Below are positions 18,276 through 30,820 of a stretch of DNA of 40,026 nucleotides, piece by piece; position 1 is the stretch's first letter; each line of letters begins with the position of its first letter. The stretch covers positions 1 through 40,026 of the forward strand of contig JAFGEX010000306.1 in NCBI GenBank assembly GCA_016931355.1, written 5' to 3'. This stretch comes from a bacterium (GTDB lineage: Bacteria; Zhuqueibacterota; QNDG01; JABMRT01). The notes below the pieces were generated by a model, which worked only from the letters and a program-made list of their open reading frames with translations, did no database searches and was not told where the DNA came from. A program made the position numbers and the translations under genes.

Positions 18276-21200
18276 TTATCGCAGCAGGAGCATTTTTCTG
18301 ACTTCGACATGATTCGCTGCCTGCATCCTGCAGAAATAAACGCCGCTCGGCATCCGCATGCCGGAATCATCCCTGCCATCCCACTGGATTTGATGATCGC
18401 CCGGAGCCTGCCCGGTTTGGTTCAGGGTCCGGATTTCCTGGCCTTTCGTGTTCAGTAGGGTCAGCCGAACATCTCCGGATTGCCCGATCGAATAGCGGAT
18501 CACGGTGCAGGGATTGAACGGATTGGGCGTGTTGGCGTACAGGGCGTATTTCAATGGTACGGGATTCCCGTCATCGGGTAAAACATCCGACGCGATGTAA
18601 GGCCTTCCCGGCGTGCCGTACAGACGGACCGCGGCCCAGTTTTCGCCCGCATTGTTGTCCGACCCCAGATCCTTCAATTCGATCGTGTAGCCTGTGCCGG
18701 ACGCATTCCCCGGCCAGGGAGTCTCAGCCCTGTAATCCACCTCATCGATCAGCCGGTTTTCAGGGTCGAAGATACGGATGCGCTCTCCGCCGCTGTCCAA
18801 TCCGAAACCGAGATCGCCGATCGCATTCCGGACCGACGGATGAACATCCAGGAAACGGCCGGCATCCCTGCACAGGACCAGATATTCTCCGGGCGCGAAC
18901 AGGATCCCGTCAGGGAATAAATAGGTGTTCGTGTCCGAGTCCGTCAATTTCCAGCCGGTCAGGTCCAGGACGGTTCCGGAAGGATTGCAGATTTCAAGCC
19001 AGTCTTCCGTGTTTTTTGCGGAAGCGGAGCTGTAATTGATCTCGCTGATCACGACCGGATTTTTCGGCCTTGCCGTGTCCGGTTCAAAACAAGCGGTCAG
19101 GGAGATATCCCCGCTCAGGATCATCTGGATGACGGATCCCTCATGCGTTCGATATCCGGCCTGCGGGATAAACGAAGCGGTCATGGTACAATCGAAACTC
19201 AGGTCGGATCCATACGGGCTGTTCTTGTGTATTTCCACCTCAAGGGTGTTGGGACCCGGGTTGAGCAATTCCACAGGCACCGCGTACCGCCGGAAAATAT
19301 TCTCATACGGATTATATATCGGCGTGGTCGTCGAGTAGCGGATCTCCCCCTCCGGCAGGTTGATGCGCACGATCTCCTGTCCGTTCAGATACACAACGGC
19401 GCCGTCGTCCACAAGCAGGCTGATGTAACACGAGACAGTCCGGTCGCCGGCCGGGACATCGAACGTTTTCCGGAAATAGGTCGTGATGTGCTTATCCCCG
19501 GGATTCCCCCCGAAATCCACGACCGTGGACTCATCGCCATCGCCGTAACCGAACTGCGCCCGTCCGGAGGCCCAGGATCCGTCATCATAATCATTCCGGG
19601 TCCACGTCGTCCCGAGATCAACGCCGCGGTCATGGTATTTCCACACATCGCCGGCTGGAAGGATCACCCGATTCTGAACGGCATTGGAGCGCTCCTCCCA
19701 GTGTGAAAACCGGTAGCCGGACAGGGGCGCAGCGCTGAACGGCACAGGCACGTCGTTGAAAAAGATCCCCTGAAAATCCTCGGGTATTTTTCTGCCCAGC
19801 ATTTTCAACAATCCGGATCCGGGCCTATTCAGACTGACACGGACGATAGAAGTCCCGCTCAACCCGAAATGATCCTTCACATGCTTCACCGCGTACGGAC
19901 TGCGTCTGCGCGCAAAGTCCCGCATATTCTCCACATGGGCTTCCCATGACTCGACGGACCTGAAAGTGGGCGGGATCCAGGATTCCGCGGCCTTTCCGGT
20001 CAGATCCACGCGGCCTCCCCACTTTTCGATGTGATGCGGGATCTCGGGCCGCAACCGGTCGGCCAGGCTGTCGATGACGGCGATGACGCGCGCCGAGTCG
20101 AAGGTAGTGCTGACATGCCAGGCGAACAGATTGATGAACCGGTTTCTGAATTCCCGGTTTTCCAGAAGGTTCCTGAACAGGCGCGTGGACCATTCGGGAT
20201 TCGGCCATCCGGGACCCTGATCCGTGGTGCATTTCCGGATCATGTTTTCCGAAAGCCATCCCAATGTCAACGTCTGATCCATATCATAATGGATCCAGCG
20301 CCATTGCGTATACTCGCCGGTGCCTGTCTTCCAGAACTTGATGTTGTTACCCGGCCAGTCCCTCTCCGCCAGGTAGATCTGCCCGATCATGTATTCGATG
20401 TATTGATCCGCATCCATCATGGTCTTGACGATTTCGTAGTTGTCCTGATCCGCCATGTTTTCCGAGGTGACGAAGTCCATCAGGGTCAGATAGTCCTCAT
20501 TGTCGCCGTGGGCCGTGTTCCAGTCGCTGCCGTCCCTCTCCAGCAGGTCCACGTCATCCGGATCCACACCGAAATTTCCCGCCACAAAATGTTCGTTTAC
20601 CTTTTCACGGATGTTGTGAATGCCCCAGTATTCGCCGTTCAGATAAACCACGACCGGCTGATAGGCCTGATAGTCGGCGTCCATGGTCTTTGCCAGGACC
20701 TGCTGCGCAGCCGCATCGCGAAACATCGTATACACCTGATCGTCCGCCGAGCTCCGCAAAATGAAGGATTCAAATTCATCAATGGTTTTTTCCTCGAAAA
20801 GCCGGACCTTGAAGGAGCCCTTGCCGTAGCCGCTGCGTGCGAACAATGACAGCGATTTCTGCGGGTAGCGGTGGCGTGAACATCCGCCGAAGATCTGGAC
20901 GCCCGCCTGCTGGTTCAGGAGCCGGCCGCCGTCCGTCCCAAAAAGTTCGATGTTGACGGGCCGTTCCCAGTCCTGGTTCACGTTGCTGATCACGCCTGCG
21001 CAGTATCCGCCCTTTCCGTTTGTACCGGTCACATAGATGCCGGTCTCGTCGTCAAAGAAATTTTCCGGATCCGTGGCAAGGGAAATGACGGGCAGGTTGA
21101 CCGGTATATCGATGAAATAGGTTTGGGTGACGACCGCGCTGGGCGGCCTCCCCTCCTGATACGCCACTGCGCGGACCGGGGTTGTCTTTTCGATGATCAC

Positions 21201-21890
21201 AGGACCGTCGTACGGGATCGAAGCGTCGTCCGGAGTTGTACCCTCCAGAGAGAAAAAAATCTCGACTTCGCCGTCATTGAGAAAAGCGACGCTTTGCCCG
21301 CCCCTGTAAAAACCTCCCGGGATCGAAAAAACAGGCTCCGGCGTCATTTCCACAATGCCTGAGGCGTCATTGGGATCGCCCGGAGTCGGCGGCGAGAAAA
21401 ATGCCCATGAATCAGGATTGTCCGGATGACGGCCGTATGAGATGTCATCCGCCTGCGCTCCGAACCGGATGGAATCGATACACACCGTATCTGTATCTGA
21501 AAGCCTGATTTCCTCGGCGCTGCGGTCCAGCTTGAAGTTGGCATGCAAGCCTGCATCTTCATCATCCAGCCAGATCAGGAGATTGTCTCCTGCCCGGATG
21601 ACCGTATTCGGCGGGAACCGCCACTTCGACGGATGATCCGCATTATCCGTCAAAAAATATCCACCGAGATCAGCGTCTGCGCCCGTGTGGTTGGCCAGTT
21701 CCACCCAGTCCGAGAAACGCAAAAAATCCGGATCCCGGTTGACGGACCGGTTGGCTGCGAGAAATTCGTTGATGGCGATTCCGGGGGTCTGCGCAAAAAG
21801 AGCGTTTTCATGAAATGACAGTGCGATTACTGCAAGAGGCAGGAGAATCATTCGCCTGATTAAGGGACTGTTGTGAATCGATGCCCGCAA
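18276..21890 (-). CDS. Giant secreted CotH-kinase-like protein with lamin-tail domains and T9SS sorting domain
   Basis: 1204 residues. The frame starts at TTG 21890 behind GAAGGG; an ATG at 21851 is the alternative and would keep most of the signal peptide, which ends near residue 34 (ALFAQT). Order of domains: lamin-tail domain (~37-170, INEFLAANRS ... DWVELANHTG), a chitobiase-C/FN3-like domain (~195-250), CotH-like kinase fold (~265-620, with GEYWGIHNIREKV and RWIHYDMDQTL), a jelly-roll domain of the beta-galactosidase type (~750-880, YLNGQEIVRINLP), second lamin-tail domain (~950-1090, VISEINYSS ... DWLEICNPSG) and a T9SS tail (~1130-1204, NTPNPFNPCTVIRYS ... KMLLLR). CotH proteins phosphorylate secreted proteins in spore formers; similar large surface proteins in environmental bacteria are uncharacterised. 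Kinase activity here is inferred from fold only. Confidence 0.87.
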   Translation of the reverse strand: MRASIHNSPLIRRMILLPLAVIALSFHENALFAQTPGIAINEFLAANRSVNRDPDFLRFSDWVELANHTGADADLGGYFLTDNADHPSKWRFPPNTVIRAGDNLLIWLDDEDAGLHANFKLDRSAEEIRLSDTDTVCIDSIRFGAQADDISYGRHPDNPDSWAFFSPPTPGDPNDASGIVEMTPEPVFSIPGGFYRGGQSVAFLNDGEVEIFFSLEGTTPDDASIPYDGPVIIEKTTPVRAVAYQEGRPPSAVVTQTYFIDIPVNLPVISLATDPENFFDDETGIYVTGTNGKGGYCAGVISNVNQDWERPVNIELFGTDGGRLLNQQAGVQIFGGCSRHRYPQKSLSLFARSGYGKGSFKVRLFEEKTIDEFESFILRSSADDQVYTMFRDAAAQQVLAKTMDADYQAYQPVVVYLNGEYWGIHNIREKVNEHFVAGNFGVDPDDVDLLERDGSDWNTAHGDNEDYLTLMDFVTSENMADQDNYEIVKTMMDADQYIEYMIGQIYLAERDWPGNNIKFWKTGTGEYTQWRWIHYDMDQTLTLGWLSENMIRKCTTDQGPGWPNPEWSTRLFRNLLENREFRNRFINLFAWHVSTTFDSARVIAVIDSLADRLRPEIPHHIEKWGGRVDLTGKAAESWIPPTFRSVESWEAHVENMRDFARRRSPYAVKHVKDHFGLSGTSIVRVSLNRPGSGLLKMLGRKIPEDFQGIFFNDVPVPFSAAPLSGYRFSHWEERSNAVQNRVILPAGDVWKYHDRGVDLGTTWTRNDYDDGSWASGRAQFGYGDGDESTVVDFGGNPGDKHITTYFRKTFDVPAGDRTVSCYISLLVDDGAVVYLNGQEIVRINLPEGEIRYSTTTPIYNPYENIFRRYAVPVELLNPGPNTLEVEIHKNSPYGSDLSFDCTMTASFIPQAGYRTHEGSVIQMILSGDISLTACFEPDTARPKNPVVISEINYSSASAKNTEDWLEICNPSGTVLDLTGWKLTDSDTNTYLFPDGILFAPGEYLVLCRDAGRFLDVHPSVRNAIGDLGFGLDSGGERIRIFDPENRLIDEVDYRAETPWPGNASGTGYTIELKDLGSDNNAGENWAAVRLYGTPGRPYIASDVLPDDGNPVPLKYALYANTPNPFNPCTVIRYSIGQSGDVRLTLLNTKGQEIRTLNQTGQAPGDHQIQWDGRDDSGMRMPSGVYFCRMQAANHVEVRKMLLLR

Positions 21891-22345: not shown

Positions 22346-23068
22346 TTAAAACTTGAAATTCAGACTGACCGCAGCATACGACAGGCGGAATTTACCCTTT
22401 AATTCACTCTCCAATTCGTATCTCATCTTCGCAACGCTGAAATACGAATCCTCATACTCCTCCGAATCGTCGTATTTTGCCAAGGCATTCATCCATCTCA
22501 GGCCGTACTCTCCGCCGATGCTGAAATGATCCGACAGAGGATATTCGACGCCGAATCCGAAATTGACGCCCCAGAATCCCAGGATGTCCTTGATGAATTC
22601 ATTCAGATCCTCGTCCGTATCCGATTCGTCGGCCGGATCCATGTATTCGCCGAAGATCCCATAATCATTTTCTGTCTCCTTCGATTTCAGATCGAACGAC
22701 GAAAATGATTTGAACAGTTCCACGAATCCGTATGGAATCAGCCTGGATTTCCTGAAATCGACCTTGACGCCGATGTGCGGGATGAGCAAACCCGCGGATA
22801 TTTCTGTGCTGCTCCTGCTGTCGTACATTTTTTCCTGAACGCGGGTCGCGGGATCGAAAAAATAGACGGAAGCGGAGGATGAACTTTCCACTGAAAGGGC
22901 CAGATGGTCCAGCCCGATATACGGCTGCACGGAACCGATCTGAAGGCCGGCATGAGCGGTTTGCAGCGATTGATTCGGCTTGATGCTGAAAACAAAAGAC
23001 TGTGCGGAAGCCAGAAGCGGCACAAGTACAATCACCGCCGCAATCGCACGGGCAATGATGTTCTGCAT
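22346..23068 (-). CDS. Putative outer-membrane beta-barrel protein
   Basis: 240 residues, with AAAGGAGG before the ATG. A signal peptide (1-22, ending LLASAQ) is followed by alternating hydrophobic/polar strands (VQPYIGLDHLALSVE, ISAGLLIPHIGVKVDF, LIPYGFVELFKSFSSF, NFGFGVEYPLSDHFSIGGEY, given in part) and the C-terminus FRLSYAAVSLNFKF ends in an aromatic residue, the usual sign of BAM-assembled barrels. A long acidic loop (DPADESDTDEDLNEF) is probably extracellular. About 8-10 strands fit the length. I do not recognise a specific family. A 317-bp gap separates it from the HEEGH gene, with its own candidate promoter there. Confidence 0.7.
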   Translation of the reverse strand: MQNIIARAIAAVIVLVPLLASAQSFVFSIKPNQSLQTAHAGLQIGSVQPYIGLDHLALSVESSSSASVYFFDPATRVQEKMYDSRSSTEISAGLLIPHIGVKVDFRKSRLIPYGFVELFKSFSSFDLKSKETENDYGIFGEYMDPADESDTDEDLNEFIKDILGFWGVNFGFGVEYPLSDHFSIGGEYGLRWMNALAKYDDSEEYEDSYFSVAKMRYELESELKGKFRLSYAAVSLNFKF

Positions 23069-23385
23069 GGGTAACCTCCTTTTTGAAATTTCGATGAGTG
23101 ATTGTCCGAATCATGATCCGCTGCCCGTTTCGGCATTCAATACTCGTGCCGGAATGATACGCGGACGGATCTCATGCACCTATTTTGTTCTTTATCAGGG
23201 GATTAGAGATGGATATGAAAAAGATGGCCGGGTATGAACAAAGCAGAAAATGTTATGATTTATTATACATCTATTATAATTCTGTGGAAATTCGTCAACA
23301 AACTGGCAGGCTGGAGGGAAATCCGGCCTGCGGGCTCAGGAAACGGATGAAAAATTCCGGGCCGCCGGAAAACAATGATCCCCGA
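23069..23385. other. 317-bp upstream region of the barrel gene
   Basis: AT-rich between about 23190 and 23300, unlike the surrounding GC-rich DNA, with two TATAAT-like boxes on the minus strand. No gene is supported; short open frames here have no binding sites. Confidence 0.6.
23271..23298 (-). promoter_or_regulatory. Candidate promoter for the barrel gene
   Basis: On the minus strand TTGACG (23293-23298) is followed after 16 bp by TAATAG (23271-23276), which overlaps a TATAAT (23273-23278); a second TATAAT lies at 23262-23267. This would give a leader of about 190 nt for the gene starting at 23068. The bases are clear; promoter activity is inferred. Confidence 0.4.
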
Positions 23386-24807
23386 TTATAAAATCGAAAA
23401 CATCACGCCGGTCCGGGCCTGGAAAGCGGGCTCCAGGTACACATTGCCCGGCATCCAGCCCGCAGTCTTGGCGTCGCATTCCAGATATCCTGACAGAACC
23501 CGGCTGAACGGCAAAGCGGCTCTGAACAACAAGCCGCACCCTGCCTGAGCTTTTCGGGAATCGAATCTCTGCGCCTGAGGCTGAAGCCAGAACGACGCTG
23601 ATGCGGACACCGGGATGATCTTTCCGCTGATCTGCAGAGGATACCGCAGCAACTCGGCCGAAAGGCCCGGCCAGTACCTGTACCTGGAAATATAGGAGTC
23701 CCAGGTCAACACCAGATTCACATCGCCCTGCTGATAGAAGACATGAAGCCGGGTGGCGGTTCCGAACGAGGCGGGATGATGCACCAGGGCGATGTTCCAC
23801 CAGCACGGTTCATGCGTAAACGGATTGGATCCGCGGAAACGGTCGAGACCGAACATCTGCGGGGACAGAAAATTGAGGAGGATCAGCCCGCCCTGCAGCC
23901 TGAGATAGCGCAGCTCCTCTCCGCGCAGCTCGGACGGCTGAATGTAACGGTCCACGCCGGCTCCCGAAGGGTGGGGCCTGCCGCGGACGCCCGACAGGTA
24001 GGGCTCGTCCGGCCTGAACAGGTCGTACACCCATGAGAGGTAATCCCCTCCCACGATGTCCCGCTTCAGTTCATCGGCATCCTCCTTCAGCGTCTCCTCT
24101 TCGATGATCCGGTTTGCCTCGTCGCTCCCGCAGAGCATCACATAATAAGCCAGCGTCCCGATGTTGATCCACCAGTCCGGCAGGTCGAGCCAGGAGGATC
24201 TTCCGCCGAAGAAGTTTTCCTTGCGAATGCGCTGCACAAGCTCGATCTGAACTTCTCCGCCCGCCTCCGCCAGCCGCACCATGTCCGCCGGATGCCTGTC
24301 CTTGAGCATCGCCAGGTCGCCGTCCCGCACATGGCTGACACTCACCATTTCCGCAAAGGGGTTCCGGTAAATTTCATCCAGGCTGGAAATCCCGCGGCGC
24401 GTCAAGACAGCCCTGTGACCCTCCTCATGCGTCCATCCGCGGAAGGGCGACAACGCGTCGAAAATCAAAATCGACGAGCACAGCCCTCCCAGCCTCCGGT
24501 TGGACATCAGACCTTTCAGACTCCTGTCGGGGAAATCCGGATTCCACAATGATTTCAGCGCTTGATGCACACCCTGTGTCACGCCTGCCGTCACGGCAAT
24601 GGATTGCTGCATGCTGGGAAATGGGAAGCCGTGAGCTGTATTGAACGGGATATCCAGCAAAGGAAACTCAAGCTGTAACGGCTTTTTGATAACGGACGGT
24701 TTCGCATCTGTGGAGTCTGATTGCCTGTCGGCAAAAACGGACAGCGCCGTGACGAATACGATCGCAATACCGGACCGGATACTGATTTTTTGAACGAACG
24801 TCCGCAT
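23386..24807 (-). CDS. Secreted protein with HEEGH motif and beta-rich C-terminal half; possible metallopeptidase
   Basis: 473 residues with a signal peptide (~1-26, ALSVFA). The ATG lies 3 bp after the stop of the papain-like gene, and its AGGGA binding site overlaps that gene's end, so the two are translated together. Residues 122-140 read 'FRGWTHEEGHRAVLTRRGI': H127-E-E-G-H131 fits the HExxH zinc motif followed by R-R-G-I, as in some membrane-linked peptidases. A helical region (~145-260) follows. From ~300 on, the sequence alternates as amphipathic strands (TRLHVFYQQGDVNLVLTWDS in part; LSAELLRYPLQISGKI; YLEPAFQARTGVMFSIL) up to an aliphatic C-terminus, so it may be an outer-membrane barrel. 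I do not recognise a named family. Peptidase activity is inference. Confidence 0.6.
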   Translation of the reverse strand: MRTFVQKISIRSGIAIVFVTALSVFADRQSDSTDAKPSVIKKPLQLEFPLLDIPFNTAHGFPFPSMQQSIAVTAGVTQGVHQALKSLWNPDFPDRSLKGLMSNRRLGGLCSSILIFDALSPFRGWTHEEGHRAVLTRRGISSLDEIYRNPFAEMVSVSHVRDGDLAMLKDRHPADMVRLAEAGGEVQIELVQRIRKENFFGGRSSWLDLPDWWINIGTLAYYVMLCGSDEANRIIEEETLKEDADELKRDIVGGDYLSWVYDLFRPDEPYLSGVRGRPHPSGAGVDRYIQPSELRGEELRYLRLQGGLILLNFLSPQMFGLDRFRGSNPFTHEPCWWNIALVHHPASFGTATRLHVFYQQGDVNLVLTWDSYISRYRYWPGLSAELLRYPLQISGKIIPVSASASFWLQPQAQRFDSRKAQAGCGLLFRAALPFSRVLSGYLECDAKTAGWMPGNVYLEPAFQARTGVMFSIL

Positions 24808-24810
24808 GCT

Positions 24811-26163
24811 TCATTCCCTCAACTTCAGAGAACGGTACACCTCCTGTTGAACCAGTGTAAAAGGCAGTCCCTGATCCGCAATGATAAAACCCTCTTCCGT
24901 ATCCAGAATCTCGAACTCCCTGATGATGACGGGCTTCTCCCCGCTGTTCGTGATTCTGAAGTACCAGTAATCCCCCGAACCGTCCGCATCCAGATCGGTC
25001 AAATCAAACGTGAAACTCCCGTCGCCGGGTTCCTTCCCGCCGCCGAACGAAAGATCACCGCCCGCGATCAGCGACACTCCGGCCGTGCAGGGTTCATAGC
25101 CGAGCCCGTACGGATCAAAAACGGATTTTAGCCCGGCTGGGAGAGGAGGCTCCGCCTTGGGAGACCGGCCGAACTGAAACCGGATCTTGTCCCTCTCCTG
25201 TGCGTTCAGGGTGAGCTTCGCGAGAATACGCGGCACATAGCGGTCCCGGATGATCATCCGGTTGACCCTGTGCTGAAAGATCGACGGCCCTGCCGCGGAA
25301 TAGGCCATCCAGAGAAATCCCCTGTTGTGATCCGGTGCGTCCGGCCCGATACTGTCCGCGATTTTCAGCGCGCCTTTCTCTGCCGCCTGAGCGACCCCGT
25401 CCCTGTTCAGGTCCGCCCAGACGTGGTCGTTATAACCCACAACTGCGACCGTATGCTCCGGGCCGTTCTTCCCTTTGATCAGAATGCTTTCGCCGATAAA
25501 AGGGTCGTCCTCGCCTGTCGCCGGATCATCCGCAATCCTGGAAAAGAACCCTGCGAATGTCTCGGACTGGATGACCAGGACCTCGCCTGCGCTCAACAGG
25601 CTTTTCATCTCATGAAGAAAGGCCTCCTCGCTGCCGAATGAATCATCAGCGCCGGGCGACTCATCCCGGAAGGTGAAGAAACTGTAACCGGCCGTGCGGT
25701 ACTGAAGCGCATTCCGCCATACAGCCGCGTCCGTGCACCAGGGGAGGTAATTCCGGTCGTACGGGGATTCGGTCAGCACGGCGCAGCCGTGCCTCTCTAC
25801 GAATTTGTACACGTCGTCCACGCGGATGTTGTAGGGAAAACTACCCGCATTATTCAGGATGTTGTATCCGAACTGGGGTGAAAAGGTATTCTCCGGGGCG
25901 ACCGGGCGCTGATATTGCCGATTATACAGGAAAGTCATTTGATAATAAACAACCGCGAACCAGTCGCAGGAGCCGATTTCCCCCTGGTCCATGACCGGAG
26001 GGAAAAAGGGAGTATTGCTCAGGTCCACGGAATGCGGCAGTTGATCCCGGGTCCGGCAATCACCCGCATAAAAAGCGGAAACGCAAAGGCCGGCGAGCAG
26101 CAGTATCCGCGGGCTTTTCAGGAATGTGATGAGGCCTGAGACGAAAAAGGGACGCATGGTCAT
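24811..26163 (-). CDS. Secreted papain-like (C1) cysteine peptidase
   Basis: 450 residues from the ATG at 26163 (GGAG upstream); longer starts up to 26295 would run over a hairpin and push the signal peptide 44 residues inward. A signal peptide covers ~1-33. The mature protein begins 'LPHSVDLSN...FPPVMDQGEIGSC' with oxyanion Q60 and nucleophile C66, H237 in GPEHTVAVVGYND, and D270 in LKIADSIG where papains have Asn (vkNSWG). The Trp after the Cys is Asp (GSCDWFA). There is no propeptide of normal length. A Ca-binding-like loop (DLNRDG) follows the His. From ~300 on is a beta-rich domain with FDLTDLDADGSGDYWYF. Probably degrades proteins in the periplasm or outside. It is followed, 3 bp on, by the HEEGH gene. 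Confidence 0.82.
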   Translation of the reverse strand: MTMRPFFVSGLITFLKSPRILLLAGLCVSAFYAGDCRTRDQLPHSVDLSNTPFFPPVMDQGEIGSCDWFAVVYYQMTFLYNRQYQRPVAPENTFSPQFGYNILNNAGSFPYNIRVDDVYKFVERHGCAVLTESPYDRNYLPWCTDAAVWRNALQYRTAGYSFFTFRDESPGADDSFGSEEAFLHEMKSLLSAGEVLVIQSETFAGFFSRIADDPATGEDDPFIGESILIKGKNGPEHTVAVVGYNDHVWADLNRDGVAQAAEKGALKIADSIGPDAPDHNRGFLWMAYSAAGPSIFQHRVNRMIIRDRYVPRILAKLTLNAQERDKIRFQFGRSPKAEPPLPAGLKSVFDPYGLGYEPCTAGVSLIAGGDLSFGGGKEPGDGSFTFDLTDLDADGSGDYWYFRITNSGEKPVIIREFEILDTEEGFIIADQGLPFTLVQQEVYRSLKLRE

Positions 26164-26265: not shown

Positions 26266-26358
26266 GTTCATTGGCAGCAGTTTGTCGTTATCCATGCTGC
26301 CGCGCTAAAATTGCGGCCTCAGCCGGCGAAAGGTTGAAAGGCGGCCGCGATGAGAAAG

Positions 26359-29080: not shown

Positions 29081-30820
29081 TCATTCAAACGACCCCTTCC
29101 ACACGCCCTCGAAAAAAGCCTGCACGTTTTTTCCGATGGTCCTTGTCTTGTAGCCCCCTTCCTGAACAAAAAGCGTTGAACAGGGCAGGTCGCCGATCAG
29201 CCGTCCGATCTTCAGAAAGTCGGAGGAGATCAGCGGCCAGGTTCCCGTCGGATCGCCGCGGGCCGTGTCGAAGCCCAGCGCGACCACGAAAAATGTGGGA
29301 TTGTATTTTTTGATTTTGTTGACGGCCTGCAACAACGCATCGAGGTATCTCTCCGCTGTGATCTGTTCCGGCAGGGGAATGTTGATATTGTGATTCATCC
29401 CCCTGCCCGCGCCGCTCTCCCCGCTGAATCCGCAGAAGAAAGGATACGCGAAGCTCGGATGGCCATGGATGGAGATCGTCAGCACGTCATCCCGCTCGTA
29501 GAAGAGGGTCTGCTGCCCGTTACCATGATGGTAATCGATGTCCAGGATCGCGACGTTGCCGTACCGGCTCAGGTAATGGGCGGCGATTGCCGTCGAATTG
29601 AGGTAGCAGAACCCACCGAATACATTCCGCTCCGCGTGATGCCCCGGCGGCCGGATCAGGGCGTAGGAAAGGAAGGATCCTTCGAGAAGGGCCTGTGCCG
29701 CTGTCAGCGCGCAGTCGACCGCGTTGCGCGCGGCCAGAAACGCGTTCCGGTTCAGCGGCGTGAAGGTGTCGATGCAATAGTATCCCGCGCGCATCGGCAA
29801 GTCCTTCGGCGGGCGGGTGCTATTCCGAATGGGAAACACGTAGGGATAAACCGATTCGTCTTCCGGAAGGGACAGACAGACCTTCTGAAGATAATCGAAG
29901 AAACCGCGGCCATGAACAGCGGTGATGTGGTGTTCCGCGAAACGCCGGGAAGGAATGGGGTGGAAATAATCGGTCTTTCCGAGTGAGGCGAGAATCGTCT
30001 CGACCCGGACCGGTGATTCCACGTATCCGCGGTCCGGGACGTTGTGGATGGTGTGCCGGTCGCTGTACACCAGGCTGATGCGCCGGTCCGGCGGGATGTA
30101 AACATGCACGGGTTCAATCTGAGTCTCGACAATATATTTCAACGGACGCAGCCTCACCGGATCGTCTTGAATGGACTGGGTGACCATCGCGATATATTCC
30201 TGATTGCACACATCGGGGTACTTCCGTTCCAGGATGGCCCTGACGATCCGGCGCAGCTCTTCCTTGCCCACCGGTTTCTTCGAGTCGAGCGTGTCGAGCA
30301 TCAGATACGGCGGATTGTCCGTGCCTTCCCGGACGGGCGTCTCGTACAGGGTGTTGATGACCGGGCAGGCGCCGTACTTTTCATAAAACCGGAGGCGGGC
30401 CCTGTTCTGCTTCAATATCAGAGGATCCCGGCACAACTTTTCATCGTCGGGGAGGCACTCGAAAAACAGGCCGCTGACCCGGAGTGTGGCCGCCTCCATC
30501 CGGACACGCTCGTACAGCGCGCCTCCGATCCCCCGGCCGGATAGCAGTTTCGACGTCGAAATGAAATCCAGATAACAGAAATCGAGGTCCGGGGCGTGCA
30601 AAAGCATGGCAAAGCCGTTGATGTTTCCCTTCATGTCGTCCGCGATGAACAAAATGGATCTAAACCGGTATTTGAGCGGATTCATCAGCATATCCGGAAG
30701 CTTATCGATGTCGCTTGAACGAAGCAGGGAAAACTGCTCGCGCAGTATCTGCTGCGCCCGGACGACGGCCTTTTGATTGGCAGGACTGCTGACGTCGTAA
30801 ATCCGCCGTATTCTGAACAT
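29081..30820 (-). CDS. GNAT acetyltransferase fused to histone-deacetylase/acetylpolyamine-amidohydrolase domain
   Basis: 579 residues, GGAAAGGA before the ATG. Residues ~1-180 form a GNAT-like domain with acetyl-CoA pyrophosphate loop SGRGIGGALYERV (~94-106) and NRARLRFYEKYG. Residues ~245-575 are a class II HDAC/acetylpolyamine deacetylase: H394-H395 in RPPGHHAE, NGFCYLN-like GGFCYLNSTA, zinc ligands D429 and H431 in DIDYHHGNG, D518 in ALGFDTARGDPTG and the tyrosine in QEGGY. Both catalytic halves appear intact, so a single cytoplasmic polypeptide could add and remove acetyl groups on polyamines or proteins. It sits between pectin genes but has no evident carbohydrate role. The fold calls are firm; the substrate is open. 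Confidence 0.9.
   Translation of the reverse strand: MFRIRRIYDVSSPANQKAVVRAQQILREQFSLLRSSDIDKLPDMLMNPLKYRFRSILFIADDMKGNINGFAMLLHAPDLDFCYLDFISTSKLLSGRGIGGALYERVRMEAATLRVSGLFFECLPDDEKLCRDPLILKQNRARLRFYEKYGACPVINTLYETPVREGTDNPPYLMLDTLDSKKPVGKEELRRIVRAILERKYPDVCNQEYIAMVTQSIQDDPVRLRPLKYIVETQIEPVHVYIPPDRRISLVYSDRHTIHNVPDRGYVESPVRVETILASLGKTDYFHPIPSRRFAEHHITAVHGRGFFDYLQKVCLSLPEDESVYPYVFPIRNSTRPPKDLPMRAGYYCIDTFTPLNRNAFLAARNAVDCALTAAQALLEGSFLSYALIRPPGHHAERNVFGGFCYLNSTAIAAHYLSRYGNVAILDIDYHHGNGQQTLFYERDDVLTISIHGHPSFAYPFFCGFSGESGAGRGMNHNINIPLPEQITAERYLDALLQAVNKIKKYNPTFFVVALGFDTARGDPTGTWPLISSDFLKIGRLIGDLPCSTLFVQEGGYKTRTIGKNVQAFFEGVWKGSFE

Follow-up and report, generated by a model that had tools for sequence, protein, structure and literature searches.

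The 40,026-nucleotide stretch of bacterial DNA analysed here (the window; contig JAFGEX010000306.1 of assembly GCA_016931355.1) encodes an exported protein of 473 residues that belongs to an undescribed family whose HExxH motif is kept in distant homologues across three phyla. Our preferred reading, which we hold with about even confidence, is that this protein is an exported metallohydrolase, probably a zinc peptidase, whose catalytic domain is helical and whose anchor is a barrel. If that reading is true, bacterial groups of almost unknown envelope biology would contain uncatalogued membrane-tethered metalloproteases or metallohydrolases.

The gene for the HExxH protein (23386-24807) lies directly behind a gene for a papain-fold (C1) exported protein (24811-26163); all features of this locus between 22346 and 26273 are given on the minus strand. 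The ORF list and direct reading of the sequence confirmed the 3-bp spacing of two secreted proteins that a preliminary description had reported: the C1 stop codon TGA (24813-24811) is followed by AGC and then by the ATG of the 473-residue ORF (24807-24805). A Shine-Dalgarno-like GAGGGA within the end of the C1 gene, upstream of this ATG, could be the ribosome-binding site for the ORF, and both proteins have a hydrophobic signal-like segment at the N-terminus. The longest version of the C1 ORF (494 residues, start at 26295) is an artefact, because a dispersed intergenic repeat underlies its first ~45 codons and accounts for the added N-terminal stretch; the start is at 26163 (or 26157), and 26163 is the position that the preliminary description had assumed. 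The repeat upstream of the C1 gene (26176-26273) contains two G+C-rich palindromes (CCCCGC...GCGGGG and CGCCCCAAGG(G/T)GCG), is REP-like with a length of ~90-110 bp, and occurs in at least 10 copies in the genome, at least 9 of them (L006-L014) on further contigs with 76-90% identity over 85-113 bp. In so far as this dispersed repeat is present on it, the contig genuinely belongs to the window genome.

Downstream, an outer-membrane beta-barrel-like protein is encoded at 22346-23068, its match to OMP_b-brl (PF13505; E=1.8e-6, 28.7 bits) standing exactly at the Pfam cut-off. A barrel-like gene therefore does follow, as had been described, but it falls outside the tight cluster: it is separated from the HExxH gene by 317 bp with a terminator-like hairpin directly after the HExxH gene (23355-23370), and is probably a separate transcription unit. 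A sigma-70-like promoter match lies ahead of the barrel gene (23262-23290). Hairpin and promoter match are suggestive only as signs of separation, because the consensus scans return site counts near (hairpin) or at (promoter) those expected in shuffled sequence. Elsewhere in the window, a single minus-strand ORF (29081-30820) was observed to join a GNAT-like N-terminus (just below cut-off) to a domain of histone-deacetylase type (PF00850, E=2.6e-68), uniting opposite activities, acetyltransferase-like and deacetylase-type, in one chain.

The 473-residue protein had been described as unrecognised, and it stayed so: it had no match above cut-off in Pfam, NCBIfam or PHROGs, and a PDB search with its sequence alone returned chance matches only, while the profile of the HExxH family had no match in the PDB. 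No Pfam peptidase family was matched by any of the nine family members, and no NCBIfam peptidase family by the window protein. DUF6950 and phrog_2134 were considered over residues 116-170 and rejected as chance, the DUF6950 match being below cut-off and found in one of the nine members (the window protein). Open-access texts contained no paper with "HEEGH" and no description of a barrel-fused HExxH family.

Eight homologues were collected, from two genera of the window's phylum, from a candidate division WOR-3-type phylum and from two Spirosoma plasmids. They were found in three other genomes (G047, G064 and G073) among 82 of the window's phylum and in three of the four genomes of the WOR-3-type phylum, the fourth (G085) being without the gene; viral contigs and phages were searched and held no relative. 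The Spirosoma (Bacteroidota) proteins WP_232563897.1 and WP_169553517.1 are full-length, 33% identical and annotated "hypothetical protein"; they have the same conserved residues as the window protein, and differ from it in reading HEEYH for HEEGH and in being encoded by solitary plasmid genes. All members with a complete N-terminus have a hydrophobic one (the member on contig L030, as read, starts internally). For the homologue at 1363-2412 of contig L022 we observed that the last ~55 residues fail to align with the others, and this sequence is probably rearranged or frameshifted near its end.

The motif HEEGH was confirmed at residues 127-131, where the preliminary description had placed it (codons 24429-24415), with His127 and His131 as putative metal ligands and Glu128 as putative general base. 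Since an HExxH is expected by chance 0.022 times in a 473-residue protein of such composition, its occurrence would be weak evidence by itself; what decides is whether it is conserved across the nine proteins, and it is. In the alignment, His127, Glu128 and His131 are invariant in nine of nine proteins that are 23-34% identical between three groups, and the variants HEEGH, HEGGH and HEEYH differ at the x positions only (EG, GG, EY). The window protein has 11 histidines, of which just the two in the motif are invariant, and 23 glutamates, of which three are (E128, E185 and E298). Altogether 40 of 326 well-filled columns are invariant, including H127, E128, H131, R132, D162, R178, G183, E185, R249, D250, G253, D255, R265, P266, R287, Y288, E298 and N312. 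The H/E/H pattern looks like a metal site.

These counts bear on the possibility that the HExxH residues are structural and metal-free and the protein an outer-membrane scaffold or assembly factor. Against it, H, E and H stay invariant at 23-34% identity though their inner neighbours change, and no histidine besides the motif pair is invariant. The lack of a catalytic family match in Pfam and NCBIfam fits a scaffold, as do structure models too poor (pLDDT 39 and 44) to yield a metal geometry. In one report (PMC3650047), ~52% of HExxH occurrences fall inside known Pfam domains of any kind, so that, on those figures, many lie outside known domains, which also points this way. We judge a purely structural role improbable.

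The search for a third metal ligand yielded E185, D250, D255 and E298 as candidates, from their invariance in the alignment. Glu185, in the sequence AGxE (24253-24255), is the best candidate, being invariant in a region where the alignment is free of gaps; D250 and D255, which belong to the acidic motif R249-D250-x-x-G253-x-D255 (24043-24063, invariant in all nine proteins), and E298 are alternatives. The residues that follow E185 differ between the three groups (E185-VQIE, E-SDYM and E-GQYL), and the ExxxD of gluzincins is absent. The protein is zincin-like in its motif, yet we place it in no named peptidase family, because all tested family profiles failed and this ExxxD is absent. A diiron (ExxH) reading of EEGH was rejected, since a second ExxH is missing and the motif pair are the sole invariant histidines.

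The same residues could instead form the metal site of a barrel-anchored enzyme other than a peptidase, such as a metal-dependent oxygenase or an outer-membrane hydrolase that modifies lipids or glycans. Small barrels of eight strands are often the seat of lipid-modifying enzymes (PagP, PagL), which counts for this alternative, and the further invariant RDxxGxD and RP/RY residues suggest a special substrate. H-E-H with a downstream Glu, on the other hand, is a standard ligand set of zinc hydrolases, and counts against it. The helical topology predicted for the domain, which would differ from that of classical zincins, again favours an enzyme of another kind, and there is precedent in that HExxH also occurs in alpha-ketoglutarate-dependent iron enzymes with a zincin-like fold, some HExxH proteins being oxygenases (PMC12636437). 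The oxygenase version has the difficulty that a protein, once exported, would find no alpha-ketoglutarate. Overall we regard a non-peptidase enzyme as unlikely, with a zinc peptidase as the preferred reading.

Structures were predicted with AlphaFold in two runs, for the full-length window protein and for the helical domain of the G047 homologue (alignments of 5 and 7 sequences; the Spirosoma sequences were left out of the second input). Both models were poor (pLDDT 39.3 and 43.7) and were taken for secondary structure only. By DSSP of these low-confidence models, residues 48-315 (23863-24666) form a predicted helical domain. In the model of the G047 homologue (pLDDT 43.7), the equivalent of HEEGH opens a helix and E185 opens a further one; ahead of the motif are helices in place of the beta-sheet of classical zincins, and a short hairpin follows it. 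Residues 324-473 (23386-23838) are a strand-rich, barrel-like C-terminal part with 8-9 predicted strands, nine of them consecutive after the helical part in the window protein model (pLDDT 39). The strand-rich C-terminal half noted in the preliminary description is thus borne out at low model confidence, and also, independently of the models, by hydrophobicity: in each of the seven homologues whose C-terminus is intact, the C-terminal ~155 residues alternate with a two-residue period above composition-matched shuffles (z 1.2-2.8), and the helical part of the homologues has no such alternation above shuffles. This alternation signal is moderate, from weakly amphipathic strands. No barrel family profile in Pfam matched the C-terminal part of any of the nine members. 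The strands probably fit a small outer-membrane barrel of eight-strand size, which would be closed and inserted in the membrane.

The neighbouring protein (24811-26163) received no call from Pfam or NCBIfam profiles, and a PDB search with its sequence alone gave chance matches only. The C1 identity proposed for it in the preliminary description was nevertheless right: it shares 31% identity over 297 aa (E=6.7e-10) with a protein from another genome of the same phylum whose Pfam family is Peptidase_C1. A profile built from the small C1 family matches Lpg2622 (6a0n) and the clostridial cell-surface cysteine proteases 4ci7 and 4d59 (Cwp84 type), a signal of which two canonical relatives supply most. 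By homology and by its Gln60, Cys66 and His237, retained in the alignment with the two relatives, the protein can be placed in the C1 papain family. Its unusual active-site neighbours were also confirmed: the catalytic-Asn motif ANSWG of both relatives reads ADSIG, with Asp270 (codon 25354-25356, by alignment and direct read) replacing Asn and Ile replacing Trp. The dyad is thus present with the third catalytic residue altered, and Asp in place of the catalytic Asn may lower the activity. Like Lpg2622 and the Cwp84-type enzymes, the window C1 protein keeps Gln, Cys and His; unlike them, it has Asp270 at the position of the catalytic Asn and Ile at that of the next Trp, and taken alone it falls below Pfam C1 detection. 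A second C1-type protein of the same genome (L034, 1255-2490) was observed to have, by eye, KDSG where NSWG is expected, again Asn to Asp.

Two exported proteins encoded so closely could form a two-protease unit, in which the C1 and HExxH proteins cooperate at the outer membrane, either through maturation of one by the other or by cutting a common substrate, and an outer-membrane proteolytic unit is what the preliminary description had proposed. The 3-bp spacing on one strand, the Shine-Dalgarno-like GAGGGA inside the upstream gene and the signal peptides on both proteins speak for such a unit. It did not hold up in other genomes, where the neighbours do not co-occur: in the sequence available around each, no C1 gene adjoins the HExxH gene at any of the eight homologue loci (the L015, G064 and G073 contigs end near the HExxH gene, so that one flank is short there). 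Among nine genomes compared, G047, G064 and G073 have the HExxH protein and no relative of this C1 group, and the reverse holds for G036 and G039; the WOR-3-type genomes G082-G085 have only weaker C1 matches, on other contigs, and these include G085, which has no HExxH gene. In the genomes searched, having one of the two families shows no correlation with having the other. The Asp in the C1 protein, which may reduce its activity, also speaks against cooperation. We consider a two-protease unit highly improbable; as far as the searched collections show, the pair is local to the window genome, and two genes found 3 bp apart on a single occasion are no evidence that their products work as a unit.

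Other neighbours differ from locus to locus. In the WOR-3-type genomes G083 and G084, the HExxH gene lies between an upstream secreted-protein gene and a downstream overlapping gene of BPL_N type; these overlapping genes (L029, 5377-6294; L030, 5384-6211) encode secreted BPL_N (biotin-protein-ligase N-terminal, amidotransferase-like) proteins and are possibly a different conserved partner in that phylum, being present in both genomes. A cytidine-deaminase-like ORF lies directly upstream of the HExxH gene on L015, of the same phylum. In G047 the HExxH gene adjoins galT (named by eye), and in G064 it ends 3 bp before an LTD-domain gene (L021, 1-1494) that also encodes an ILEI domain. The window has an LTD plus CotH kinase gene (18276-21890) two genes downstream of the HExxH gene; a shared CotH/LTD partner was rejected, since G047 and the other homologue loci have no LTD gene nearby. 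A barrel partner shared with G073, where a barrel-like gene lies downstream of the L022 homologue, was likewise rejected, BLASTP showing the two barrels to be unrelated.

The HExxH family is present in 4 of the 82 genomes of the window's phylum. With the proteins of the WOR-3-type phylum the window protein shares 61-63% identity, with those of its own phylum 25-28%, and the tree groups it with the WOR-3-type proteins (support 99/99). From the 4 positive genomes among 82 and the two plasmid copies, we take the family to be spread patchily, probably with horizontal transfer as the simplest account.

What we infer beyond these observations concerns the metal, the peptidase chemistry, the insertion of the barrel, the side to which the domain faces and the substrate. 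A signal peptide would direct the 473-residue protein across the inner membrane, and the last ~150 residues would fold into a small (~8-strand) outer-membrane barrel. The helical domain would hold one zinc through His127, His131 and a downstream acidic residue (most likely Glu185), and Glu128 would activate water to cut a peptide bond in a protein of the envelope or the cell surface. The C1 gene would be a separately acquired, locally coupled neighbour and not an obligate partner. A further-reaching version, in which the family is a new peptidase clan with an all-helical zinc peptidase fused to its own small outer-membrane barrel and moved between phyla, plasmids included, is possible, and we put it forward tentatively as a doubtful one; if true, one short chain would suffice to hold a protease at the outer membrane. 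Since cultured Spirosoma strains have members of the family, the proposal is testable.

In the open-access texts searched, we could match a helical HExxH domain with a tiny barrel to no described architecture; the nearest known systems resemble its parts. With the gluzincins, including the periplasmic M48 peptidase BepA, the protein shares an HExxH on a predicted helix, an invariant downstream acid on another helix, export and a presumed envelope location. It differs from them in having no detectable sequence relation to any Pfam peptidase family and no ExxxD, and in its predicted all-helical surroundings in place of a sheet and its barrel-like C-terminal part in place of TPR. Patatin-like PlpD (PMC11116518) combines in a single chain a catalytic domain and, C-terminal to it, an outer-membrane barrel, an order that the window protein would have by prediction. 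PlpD, however, has another catalytic chemistry and a 16-strand Omp85 barrel with POTRA (PMC11116518), whereas the corresponding part of the window protein comprises ~155 residues with 8-9 predicted strands.
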